From: Chlorobiota bacterium | Lineage (GTDB): Bacteria; Bacteroidota; Bacteroidia; Bacteroidales; JAADGE01 | Assembly (NCBI GenBank): GCA_013153575.1 | Contig: JAADEE010000240.1 | Span: 1-13,493, forward strand | Length of the DNA: 13,493 nt | Direction: 5' to 3' | Shown: in pieces, positions 7,202 through 10,265 of the stretch | How the letters are laid out: each line of letters starts with the position of its first letter | Position numbering within the stretch: the stretch's first letter is position 1 | Translations under genes and position numbers: made by a program | Notes under the pieces: model-generated | The model's input: the letters and a program-made list of their open reading frames with translations, nothing else | What the model was told of the DNA's origin: nothing | The model's database searches: none

Positions 7202-8428
7202 ATGTTATATTACTTATTCGAATATCTTGATAAAATTGACATTGCAGGAGCAGGTCTTTTTAAATATTTATCTTTCAGAGCATCACTTGCTGCTGTAACT
7301 TCGCTTATTGTATCAATGGTTTTCGGTAAGAAAATAATAAGGCTTTTACAAAAAATGCAAGTTGGCGAAGTTGTTCGCGATTTAGGTCTTGAAGGACAAT
7401 ATGCAAAAAAAGGAACCCCAACAATGGGCGGTATTATCATAATTGCCGCAATTTTAATCCCTGTTTTGCTTTTTGCAGAACTTGGCAATGTGTATATAAT
7501 TTTAATGCTAATAACAACTGTTTGGTTGGGACTTATTGGTTTTCTTGATGATTATATTAAAACTTTCAAAAAAGATAAAGCTGGTTTAGCCGGAAAATAT
7601 AAAATTATCGGGCAGGTTGGTTTAGGACTAATTGTTGGTCTTACTTTTTATTTTAGCGATACAATTCAAATTCGTGAAAATCCGGAAGCAAGTGCTTTGT
7701 GCGATAAAGAAATTGTTCAAGAATATGAATACCCAACAAATGGAAATAAACCACTAAAAACCACTATTCCTTTTTTAAAGAATAATGAATTTAATTATGA
7801 AAGTCTTGTAGGATTTATGGGCGAACATAAAAAAAGTGCAGCATGGGTTATTTTTGTAATTATGGTAATTATAATCATAACAGCCGTTTCAAATGGTGCA
7901 AATTTAACCGATGGTTTAGATGGTTTGGCAGCAGGCACATCCTCAATAATAGGGGCAACACTTGCCATATTTGCGTATGTGTCGGGTAACTTAATTTTTG
8001 CCGATTATCTTAACATAATGTACATACCTCATATTGGTGAGCTTGTAATTTTTGCAAGTGCATTTATGGGAGCAACAATTGGCTTTCTATGGTTCAATTC
8101 ATATCCTGCACAGGTTTTTATGGGCGATACAGGAAGTTTAACTTTGGGAGGAATTATTGCAGTTTTTGCAATTATTGTACGAAAAGAATTTCTAATACCG
8201 CTTTTAGCAGGAATATTTTTAGTTGAGAATTTGTCTGTAATGATACAAGTTGCATGGTTTAAATATACAAGGAAAAAGTATGGAGAAGGAAGACGTGTTT
8301 TTCTTATGTCGCCACTTCATCATCATTTTCAGAAGAAAGGAATTCCTGAGCCAAAAATAGTAGCAAGGTTCTGGATTGTGGGAATTTTATTAGCAATTTT
8401 AACAATTATTACATTGAAAGTTAGATAG
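7202..8428 (+). CDS. mraY: Phospho-N-acetylmuramoyl-pentapeptide transferase MraY
   Basis: A 408-residue polytopic membrane enzyme that transfers phospho-MurNAc-pentapeptide from UDP to undecaprenyl phosphate, forming lipid I. Landmarks are GTPTMGG (71-77), the Asp pair in GFLDDYIK (D116, D117), [12 protein letters not shown] (234-245) with D237 and D240, MGDTGSL (307-313, D309) and the histidine loop [11 protein letters not shown] (370-380). About ten hydrophobic segments are visible. It is longer than E. coli MraY (360 residues). The extra length is mainly a polar insert between about residues 153 and 213 ([26 protein letters not shown]). I recall this insert as common in Bacteroidota MraY. 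The end (TIITLKVR) is a normal MraY C-terminus, so the foreign segment that starts at its stop codon has not damaged it. Confidence 0.96.
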
Positions 8429-8457
8429 TTGAAGTGTGGGGTGTGAGTTGCGAGTTT
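8428..8457 (+). repeat. Left inverted-repeat arm, four 7-base units
   Basis: Immediately at the mraY stop (its last base is the first base of the array) there are four degenerate 7-base units: 8428-8434 GTTGAAG, 8435-8441 TGTGGGG, 8442-8448 TGTGAGT and 8449-8455 TGCGAGT. On the complementary strand the inner two read ACTCACA and ACTCGCA, the same unit as in the right arm. GC content is well above that of the surrounding DNA. Confidence 0.7.
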
Positions 8458-8880
8458 AAAAGATGATTTTTAAATTAATAAATTATAATGAGTAGTTACA
8501 AAGATTTAGAAATATATAAAATGGCTTATAAATTAGCTATTGAAATTCATCATATGTCTTTGAAATTACCCAAATATGAATTGTATGAACAAGGAAGTCA
8601 AATTAGAAGGTCGTCAAAAAGTATCAAAGATACAATTGCAGAAGGTTATGGTAGAAAAAGATATAAAGCAGATTTTATTAAGTTTTTAACTTATGCACAT
8701 GCATCATGTGATGAAACAATATCTCAATTAAATATGATAAGTGATTTGTATTATCCTGAAACACCATTAACAAAACTGATTGAAGATTATAACAATTTAG
8801 GAGGAAAAATTAACAAGTTTATAAGATATGTTGAAAACAAGTGGAAAACATAAAACTCGAGACTCGCAACTCGTAACCCA
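8437..8880 (+). other. Predicted long-range RNA stem enclosing the four-helix-bundle gene
   Basis: In RNA, 8437-8457 can pair with 8860-8880 over 21 positions. Seventeen are Watson-Crick pairs (11 in one uninterrupted run, 8445-8455 with 8862-8872), three are G-U pairs (8443/8874, 8444/8873, 8456/8861), and one is a mismatch (8441/8876). The loop of 402 bases holds the whole gene including start and stop. The mraY stop and murD start both lie outside. Pairing was worked out by hand; formation in the cell is inferred. Confidence 0.5.
8488..8853 (+). CDS. Four-helix-bundle protein of the S23 / 23S rRNA intervening-sequence family
   Basis: A 121-residue protein matching the family named after ORFs in 23S rRNA intervening sequences (S23, four helix bundle; Avd of diversity-generating retroelements is related). 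Recognisable blocks are DLEIYKMAYKLAIEIH (6-21), GSQIRRSSKSIKDTIAEGYGR (36-56, the family core QIRRxxxSIxxxIAEGxGR), FIKFLTYAHASCDE (63-76, an FIxFLxxAxxSxxE-like block) and a basic C-terminal helix (KINKFIRYVENKWK). Length is normal and the frame is intact. The molecular role of stand-alone members is unknown; binding of nucleic acid has been proposed because the bundle is basic. It has no known job in peptidoglycan synthesis and interrupts mraY-murD. It starts 59 bases after mraY and ends 77 bases before murD, much wider gaps than elsewhere in the cluster. No promoter element of its own is visible. Confidence 0.9.
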   Translation: MSSYKDLEIYKMAYKLAIEIHHMSLKLPKYELYEQGSQIRRSSKSIKDTIAEGYGRKRYKADFIKFLTYAHASCDETISQLNMISDLYYPETPLTKLIEDYNNLGGKINKFIRYVENKWKT

Positions 8881-8892
8881 AAACACGCAACC
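8855..8892 (+). repeat. Right inverted-repeat arm, 7-base unit array
   Basis: One base after the stop codon (TAA 8851-8853) of the four-helix-bundle gene, units of 7 bases follow in phase: ACTCGAG 8855-8861, ACTCGCA 8862-8868, ACTCGTA 8869-8875, ACCCAAA 8876-8882, ACACGCA 8883-8889, then ACC. The first three differ only at the last two positions. The array is inverted with respect to the left arm and contains the palindrome CTCGAG (8856-8861). Confidence 0.75.
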
Positions 8893-8930
8893 ATTAAAAA
8901 TAAATAAAGAGAAAAGAAGCAATTAAATAA

Positions 8931-10265
8931 ATGAACAAACGAATAGTCATATTAGGAGGAGGAATAAGCGGAGTTGGAGCAGCAATTCTTGCAAAAAAGC
9001 AAAGTTTTGATGTTTTTGTTTCTGACTTTGGAAAAATAAGTGAAGAAAACAAAAAACTTCTTTCAAATGAAGGAATTAACTTTGAAGAAGAAAAACACAC
9101 ATATGAACTTATTCTTAATGCAGATGAAATTATTAAAAGTCCGGGAATACCTGATAATGCACCTATAATTGTTTCTGCAAAAGAAAAAAGCATATCAATA
9201 ATTTCAGAAATTGAATTTGCATCAAGATATACAAATGCAAAAATGATTTGCATAACAGGCAGCAATGGAAAAACAACAACAACAGAACTAACATATCATA
9301 TTTATAAAAAAGCAGGACTAAATGTTGCGATGGCAGGAAATGTAGGAAAATCATTTGCTTTGCAAGTTGCAAAAGGAAATTACGATTATTTTATTTTAGA
9401 ATTAAGTAGTTTTCAACTTGACGGAATGTTTAACTTTAAAGCAGATGTAGCCATACTTCTTAACATAACGCCTGACCATTTAAATAGGTATAACAATGTT
9501 TTTCAGAATTATATAAATTCAAAATTCAGAATAACACAAAACATGACTGAAGATGACATTTTTATTTATAATGAAGATGACCCAATAATTCTTGAAGAAA
9601 TAAAAAAAAGAAACATTAAAGCTCAAAAAATTCCTTTTTCAGTTAAAAATGAATTAGAAGTTGGAGCATATAAAAAATTAGAAAAAATAATTATTAATAT
9701 CAATTCAAAACACTTTAATATGGAAAACAGTTTATTATCATTAGAAGGAGATCATAATGTTTATAATTCAATGGCTGCTGGTATTTCCGGTTTAGTTGAA
9801 GGTATTAGTAATCAGCAATTAAAGAAAAGTTTTTCTGATTTTGCAGGTGTTGAGCATCGTCTTGAAAAATATATAAAAGTAAGAGGAATTCAATTTATAA
9901 ATGACTCAAAAGCAACAAATGTAAATTCAGTTTGGTATGCCTTACAATCAATTGATGATGATATTGTTCTTATTATGGGAGGCAAAGAAGACGGGAATAA
10001 TTACTCAACTTTAAAAGATTTAGTAAGGCAAAAAGTGAAAGCAATTGTTGCAATGGGAGTTGATAATTCAAAAATTATTGAAGCATTTAAAGATATTACG
10101 AAAGTTTATGATACAAACTCAATGGAAGATGCTGTGAATACTTCATACAAAATTGCAAAACATGGAGATGTTGTTTTGTTATCACCGGCATGTAAAAGTT
10201 TTGATTTGTTCAAAAACTTTGAAGATAGAGGAAAACAATTTAAACAAGCAGTAAGAAATTTATAA
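8931..10265 (+). CDS. murD: UDP-N-acetylmuramoyl-L-alanine--D-glutamate ligase MurD
   Basis: A 444-residue cytoplasmic Mur ligase that adds D-glutamate to UDP-MurNAc-L-Ala with ATP. The N-terminal Rossmann-like domain opens with RIVILGGGISGVGAAIL (4-20). It includes EIIKSPGIP (66-74) and ISEIEF (91-96). The ATP loop is GSNGKTTTTEL (110-120), followed by LELSSFQLDG (156-165) and NITPDHLNRY (178-187). K198, in NYINSKFRIT, aligns with the carbamylated K198 of E. coli MurD. NDSKATN (324-330) and LSPACKSFDLFKNFEDRG (417-434) are C-terminal domain signatures. The ATG at 8931 is the only start that gives the standard N-terminus. The gap of 77 bases before it, unusual for this cluster, is taken up by the right repeat arm (8855-8892) and an AT-rich leader. 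FtsW follows after 26 bases. Confidence 0.97.
   Translation: MNKRIVILGGGISGVGAAILAKKQSFDVFVSDFGKISEENKKLLSNEGINFEEEKHTYELILNADEIIKSPGIPDNAPIIVSAKEKSISIISEIEFASRYTNAKMICITGSNGKTTTTELTYHIYKKAGLNVAMAGNVGKSFALQVAKGNYDYFILELSSFQLDGMFNFKADVAILLNITPDHLNRYNNVFQNYINSKFRITQNMTEDDIFIYNEDDPIILEEIKKRNIKAQKIPFSVKNELEVGAYKKLEKIIININSKHFNMENSLLSLEGDHNVYNSMAAGISGLVEGISNQQLKKSFSDFAGVEHRLEKYIKVRGIQFINDSKATNVNSVWYALQSIDDDIVLIMGGKEDGNNYSTLKDLVRQKVKAIVAMGVDNSKIIEAFKDITKVYDTNSMEDAVNTSYKIAKHGDVVLLSPACKSFDLFKNFEDRGKQFKQAVRNL

Follow-up and report, generated by a model that had tools for sequence, protein, structure and literature searches.

Intervening sequences (IVSs) are found in the 23S rRNA genes of Coxiella, Leptospira, Salmonella and other bacteria, where, according to PMC4990558, they occur sporadically and are thought to be horizontally acquired. 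The same paper describes a Coxiella IVS of 428-444 nt with a 28-bp stem and RNase III cleavage, and cites work in which the S23 protein of Xanthomonas is a homopentamer. The four-helix-bundle family to which S23-type proteins belong (PF05635, TIGR02436; structures 2GSC and 2RLD) has no function assigned in its model descriptions, which also mention no flanking heptad arrays. REP elements, associated with RAYT (Y1_Tnp) genes, are intergenic palindromes that occur with and without the gene. A resemblance of PF05635 to Avd of diversity-generating retroelements is stated in the extract of PMC10053308.

Arrays of heptamers have been described in Beggiatoaceae, Cyanobacteria and Bacteroidetes as intergenic TAACTGA repeats, many of them near start codons (extract of PMC4679880). 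These are direct repeats with one fixed unit, unlike the inverted, locus-specific heptads described below, and the terms four helix, intervening and S23 are absent from the main text of that paper. In Flavobacterium columnare, a four helix bundle gene lies between the guanylate kinase and nicotinate-nucleotide adenylyltransferase genes (extract of PMC5524665, in which the word heptamer is absent), and a four helix bundle domain is named in a legend of PMC10910872. A search of openly licensed PMC papers, within the extracts that it returned, found no description of heptad-flanked S23 genes outside rRNA.

Here we describe an S23-type gene in the window, i.e. the whole 13,493-nt stretch of Chlorobiota bacterium DNA that was analysed, and compare it with homologous loci. 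The gene lies in an element of about 464 nt (8429-8892) between two protein-coding ORFs, which on balance we read as a copy of an IVS-like insertion element of protein-coding operons, composed of an array, an S23-type gene and an inverted array. Its features are listed below; the names mraY and murD come from an earlier, sequence-only reading of this DNA and not from a family search.

8426-8428, plus strand: stop codon of the upstream gene (mraY), from the sequence; the element starts right behind it.
8431-8458, plus strand: left array of four heptads (GAAGTGT, GGGGTGT, GAGTTGC, GAGTTTA), from the sequence, including the left arm 8437-8457; pattern matches at 8443-8456 (exact) and 8436-8449 (3 mismatches); best lag-7 identity upstream 18/28.
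8437-8457, plus strand: left stem arm, 21 nt (pairing table, RNAfold, inverted repeat).
8488-8853, plus strand: S23/23S_rRNA_IVP four-helix-bundle ORF, 121 aa (PF05635, TIGR02436, AlphaFold2, 2GSC match).
8854-8892, plus strand: right array of reverse-complement heptads (CTCGAGA, CTCGCAA, CTCGTAA, CCCAAAA, CACGCAA), from the sequence; minus-strand pattern matches at 8854-8867, 8861-8874 and 8868-8881 (3 mismatches each); best lag-7 identity 19/28.
8860-8880, plus strand: right stem arm, 21 nt (pairing table).
8931-8933, plus strand: start codon of the downstream gene (murD), from the sequence and the ORF list.

The 121-aa protein matches PF05635 (2.2e-26, 92.6 bits against a cut-off of 33.8; the sole match in the profile search) and TIGR02436 (1.1e-28, 99.7 against 24 bits), so that the earlier suggestion of an S23-like gene is borne out as membership of the 23S rRNA intervening-sequence protein family. 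Its AlphaFold2 model has four helices (pLDDT 94.4), and a structure search with this model finds 2GSC (TM 0.85) and also 2RLD (S23 family, Bacteroides); the window protein thus shares sequence family, length and fold with these structures. Avd entries (4DWL, 8UB7 and related) are matched weakly, with TM 0.63-0.67, E-values of 0.2-1.2 and about 10% identity, while at sequence level the profile search finds 2GSC alone. The fold is similar to that of Avd; in contrast to diversity-generating retroelements, no linked reverse transcriptase, template or variable repeat was seen in the window, its ORFs being judged by eye.

The sequence-only reading had proposed a 21-position stem with 20 positions paired, and a pairing table confirms this position by position: 8437-8457 and 8860-8880 form 17 Watson-Crick pairs (11 of them consecutive) and three G-U pairs, with a single mismatch (8441/8876) and a loop of 402 nt (8458-8859). 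It was also right that the whole ORF lies inside the stem, with the mraY stop and the murD start outside; the S23-type gene is the only ORF of at least 80 aa between the arms. An inverted-repeat search reports the pair as 8437-8455/8862-8880 with 84% complementarity. In the fold comparison with shuffled controls that it had suggested, RNAfold of 8420-8900 gives -96.3 kcal/mol against -75.4 for shuffles (z -4.0, none of 100 shuffles as low), and its minimum-energy structure pairs the arms. For the two gaps, the energy of the RNA duplex is -34.3 against -17.7 (sd 3.4) for shuffles, 1 of 1000 being as good. As a local alignment, the stem scores 11.5. Shuffling the two intergenic gaps gives at least this score 21 times in 2000, and shuffling with 300-nt flanks 384 times in 2000; flanking DNA around 124 other genes has a mean of 10.3 and a 95th percentile of 19.5, a range that includes the score of the stem. 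By itself, the window stem is modest, being moderately unusual; it exceeds chance because its arms are pieces of 7-nt arrays and because homologues carry similar inverted heptad arrays.

A terminator reading of the stem was rejected, as no run of T stands behind the right arm. No Rfam family is found in the window at the gathering threshold. Elsewhere in the window, 3.4 copies of tandem TAAAGTGGTG repeats (1826-1859) lie upstream of the ORF at 1899, and these we take to be possible MraZ-binding boxes.

The element resembles an rRNA IVS in its size (about 464 nt, compared with 428-444 nt in Coxiella) and in enclosing an S23-type ORF between complementary ends able to form a long stem. It differs in lying in a gap between protein-coding genes, outside any rRNA gene, and in having arms that are arrays of a locus-specific 7-nt unit; RNase III cleavage is here a proposal. 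We do not class it as an rRNA IVS, because it is outside an rRNA gene and its excision is only proposed. Unlike a classical insertion sequence, it contains no transposase gene between its inverted ends, and has an S23-type gene instead.

Homologous loci were compared in two sets. The close set of 81 comprises the window and the best 80 of 239 loci (60-77% identical). The diverse set of 141 comprises 110 loci (30 + 80) from PF05635 matches listed in relatives and 31 others; places interrupted by stop codons, together with a few more, were left out of it. The homologue listing covers the best 120 of 4502 proteins, 24 of which fall in group A1 with the window. Five duplicate records (L116, L083, L101, L091 and L178) were removed from the lag-7 counts, the identity-bin scores and the folds of 212 elements, and were retained in the autocorrelation, the diverse-set permutation, and the G-U, duplex-energy and neighbour counts.

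In both sets, autocorrelation of the flanking DNA peaks at lags 7, 14 and 21, with lag-7 values of 0.37-0.42 near the gene against 0.25-0.26 far away, and the peaks are gone 400-520 nt away. At a per-locus threshold, 129 of 214 S23-type loci have a lag-7 array in at least one arm (57 in both) and 85 have none. The same threshold finds lag 8 in 23 of the 214 loci and other lags in 0-6, and lag 7 in 3 of 206 for DNA 400-530 nt away. The unit itself varies among the diverse PF05635 loci (e.g. AGTATTC, GGCAGTT, GAGTAGT, GTGAAAA). In the close set, the pair motif GTTNCNNGTTNC has 128 plus-strand matches within 100 nt upstream, compared with 34 on the other strand, and 242 minus-strand matches within 150 nt downstream, compared with 5 on the other strand; beyond 500 nt its density is 0 to 0.18 per kb. 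This strict GTTNC motif is present in both arms of 49 of these 81 loci, in one arm of 25 (window included) and in neither arm of 7. In one locus, L135 (Bacterium BMS3Bbin07), the arms are unusually long (>120 nt, local score 64.5), and GTTGC heptads are mixed with longer A-rich repeats.

At genome level, at least 5 matches of a triple GTTNC motif occur in 12 of 45 relatives with PF05635 and in none of 15 without (Fisher p 0.027), a weak test, since it covers one unit type and its reversed-pattern control is itself a heptad repeat, commoner in some genomes (205 against 12 in G042).

Mutation alone might generate such flanks, with replication slippage producing 7-nt arrays, template switching producing their inversion, and the gene merely tolerating them. 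Copy number does differ between near-identical orthologues, as in the left arrays of L213 and L217, and arrays without a gene exist. However, the period is mostly 7 whatever the unit, the arrays are concentrated near the S23 family and almost absent 400-530 nt away, and the Y1_Tnp genes of the same genomes, which are also palindrome-flanked, have no lag-7 peak as a group (39 usable of 40 loci, L342-L381). We consider this explanation very improbable.

The Y1_Tnp loci are REP-RAYT-like in their own right, many having a short palindrome on each side, the two matching each other (score 18.5 for own pairs and 9.6 for swapped ones; 39 loci). The heptad elements are similar to REP-RAYT systems in being intergenic, palindromic and found with and without a gene, and differ in that the window element has no HUH transposase and the Y1_Tnp loci of relatives lack the 7-nt period. 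A REP-RAYT system was tried as mobiliser, since Y1_Tnp counts seemed by eye to track PF05635, yet it was rejected on the missing lag-7 peak. No PF01797 match is present in G000, the draft genome that contains the window (70.7% complete).

The two arms of a locus match each other, although units differ between loci. In the 139 diverse loci with sufficiently long flanks, the mean inverted-match score is 16.0 with a locus's own right arm and 9.0 with the right arms of other loci; the own partner is the best match in 47 and is among the top 5% in 92 (7 expected). None of 10,000 permutations attains the summed score. The match is much weaker in direct orientation (first in 13, top 5% in 28). Swapping arms among the 78 close loci with sufficient flanks makes the own partner best in 3 and places it in the top 5% in 10, a weak result because close homologues share one heptad family; the diverse set was decisive. 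Scores of at least 13 are reached by 124 of 212 loci, compared with 14 of the 124 control flanks, and 88 of the 212, the window among them, fall below. Minimum-energy folds of 212 elements have at least 20 arm-arm pairs in 157 cases with the own right arm and in 78 with a swapped one. At one orthologous site in 8 genomes, the own score is 17.1 and the cross score 12.4, with 33 of 40,320 pairings equal or better.

Across 212 loci, no identity bin has an own-arm score outside 13.7-16.9. The cross score drops with falling identity from 13.7 (>95%) through 14.2, 12.2, 11.7, 11.4, 9.3 and 8.8 to 8.9 (<35%), about 6% of the pairs below 45% identity and half of those at 55-65% being sampled. The arms of a locus therefore diverge together over long times. 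Close orthologues can alter one arm alone: L172, L188, L189 and L190 have an identical right arm and differing left arms, and L213 and L217 differ in the copy number of the left array.

If pairing were kept in the sense RNA, mismatches that stay G-U in the sense strand should exceed the mirror kind. Among loci scoring at least 13 (the window, at 11.5, lies outside this count) no such excess is found, with ratios of 92:91 in 83 diverse loci and 57:49 in 44 close loci. Duplex energies do not separate the two strands either (217 loci: 119 stronger, 98 weaker; p 0.54), and antisense folds have at least 20 arm-arm pairs in 149 of 212 elements, with a median of 30 arm-arm pairs on either strand. The window taken singly has a sense duplex of -41.3, stronger than the antisense one of -37.1, and its fold has 43 arm-arm pairs antisense and 27 sense. 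Taken over the family, these results do not bear out the argument that G-U pairs hint at a structure maintained in RNA.

These results bear on the main rival to an RNA cleavage step, namely a role of the arms in DNA. The arms would then be element ends, acting through a cruciform or through end recognition by the S23 protein and copied from each other, and the sense orientation of the gene would reflect its need for the operon promoter. The absence of strand asymmetry, the similar pairing of the arms in antisense folds and the matched units in both arms (consistent with copying between ends) all speak for such a role, as do gene-less hairpins and single arrays elsewhere in related genomes. Among 20 places hand-picked as examples, and not as a rate, in the GTTNC-rich relatives G009, G013, G018 and G039, six (L290, L291, L292, L294, L296 and L297) are hairpins in which two inverted heptad arrays enclose a loop some tens of bases long, and others (L298-L302, L305 and L307-L309) are single arrays, with no 80-aa ORF between arms. 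The genomes with these intergenic arrays (L290-L309) also carry PF05635 genes. However, of the 18 hand-picked places with both neighbours in the ORF list, 17 also lie between co-directional genes, which a need for gene expression cannot explain. In addition, the S23-type gene as sole ORF of at least 80 aa between the arms leaves no transposase, target duplication was not seen by eye at the one site inspected, and there is no sign of intragenomic spread. We regard a DNA-level role of the arms as rather unlikely.

S23-type genes mostly fill the stop-to-start gaps of co-directional genes, in sense orientation. Of 78 close loci, 70 have both neighbours running in the direction of the gene, as do 106 of the 127 diverse loci with both neighbours called; for other genes on the same stretches of DNA the count is 24 of 49 (Fisher p 6e-7 and 8e-6). 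Among the co-directional loci, 101 have an arm score of at least 13; in these, a median of 3 nt separates the outer left edge of the element from the stop codon upstream and a median of 9 nt separates its outer right edge from the following start codon, so that the element nearly equals the intergenic gap. A minority is not sense-oriented, e.g. L320 in G101, where a PF05635 gene with heptad arms lies antisense at the L209 site discussed below.

Clustering the proteins on either side of the close loci gives 45 groups upstream (80 proteins) and 44 downstream (79 proteins), the largest having 11 members; related elements therefore occur at many sites together with their arms, and some sites recur. 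Where the neighbours of homologues are unrelated, the same heptad family is still present on either side of the gene, so that array, gene and inverted array travel together. Homologues that are 60-65% identical and have heptad arms come from records labelled Scalindua, Brocadia, Desulfobacterales, Deltaproteobacteria and Nitrospirae; these are mostly MAGs, in which binning errors are possible, and a transfer reading follows the record labels. With this qualification, the window element would, like rRNA IVSs, be sporadic and horizontally acquired.

Comparison of operon junctions shows the element present, absent, replaced or apparently decayed at the same place in related genomes. In the mraY-murD gap, the S23-type gene is absent in all 12 judgeable congeners (of 13), ten of which have short gaps; G006 and G010 share an unrelated insert of about 230 nt without an S23-type gene (L049, L053), and G013 has another gene upstream of murD. 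In G009, a relative that is 80% identical, with a different heptad variant, lies in the next gap, after murD. For the L209 junction, the comparison covers 14 genomes, all from one other family (f61). The junction is empty in three (G124, G136 and G148), where the two genes overlap in ATGA; it carries one element type in G085, G097, G113 and G159, another type in G105, DNA related to an S23-type gene in G151, and a gene-less hairpin of another heptad in G120. In G128 (L316) it has an apparent remnant of the start of an S23-type gene, the sole PF05635 match of this genome among the matches listed lying elsewhere and having an internal stop codon; the gaps of G140 and G167 are left unclassified. 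The L183 junction precedes a gene that looks thiolase-like by eye. Of the 14 genomes, 8 have this junction occupied, G101 and G128 have it empty, and G140 has heptad-like DNA without the gene there; G105, G136 and G167 are left unassigned.

A resident regulatory gene, whose protein binds the heptads around it and tunes the operon, with absence as ordinary gene loss, is another reading of this pattern. It agrees with the low dN/dS of S23-type genes (median 0.06, range 0.02-0.17; 44 unsaturated of 54 pairs), which shows the protein to be under purifying selection. It agrees as well with the occupation of one site in 8 of 14 genomes, and with the window's type being single-copy in six genomes, each with a match of at least 66% and a next best of at most 42%. 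However, homologues of 60-77% identity are found at many different sites, in records labelled as several phyla, the occupant of the L209 site changes between different element types and a gene-less hairpin, and the empty form of that site has overlapping genes. We consider a resident regulatory gene improbable.

The lack of near-identical copies in the same genome counts against the insertion-element reading, being unlike what an actively transposing element would be expected to leave. None of 89 loci, i.e. those of the 110 sampled that have a sampled companion in the same genome, has its nearest sampled relative there, and the best same-genome identity has a median of 46% and a maximum of 59%. 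Further points against the preferred reading are the lack of a strand-specific signal in the arms, the one-arm changes in close orthologues, the loci with no lag-7 array or with an incomplete GTTNC motif, the arm scores below 13 (the window's among them) and the minority of genes that are not sense-oriented.

Under the preferred reading of an IVS-like insertion element, the element would be transcribed together with its host operon, and the arms would close into a long stem in the operon transcript. The stem would make the insertion tolerable, and we tentatively suggest that it does so through RNase III cleavage separating the two cistron messages, as in the rRNA IVSs; this step is favoured because it accounts most economically for the sense orientation and for how operons tolerate the element. 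The S23 protein, whose solved relative is a pentamer, probably binds the heptad arms and may serve maintenance or spread of the element. A far more speculative idea, to which we give little credence, is that the element moves through its own transcript: arm-paired RNA would be cut from the mRNA, its ends copied from each other while paired, and an Avd-like S23 pentamer on the heptads, perhaps with a resident reverse transcriptase, would guide it into another co-transcribed gap, with one copy per heptad type per genome. Copying of paired ends would keep both heptad arrays of a locus alike, although the units differ between loci. RVT_1 is present in 30 of 60 relatives, and the 70.7% complete G000 has one RVT_1 match, on a different contig (C162).

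The interpretation given in the sequence-only reading is therefore partly supported: an S23 ORF inside complementary arms stands, with inverted heptad arms that recur in homologues and diverge together, around a gene that is mostly sense-oriented between co-directional genes. The G-U argument is not supported, and RNase III excision, a split transcript and a stable RNA would be proposals. If many S23-type genes are the cores of IVS-like elements, a large set of genes of unknown role would form one element family, recognisable by its signature. Insertions that spare the genes on either side would then be part of operons such as the cell-wall operon, and rRNA IVSs and their puzzling S23 proteins would gain many non-ribosomal relatives in which repeat binding and stem cutting in mRNA could be tested.
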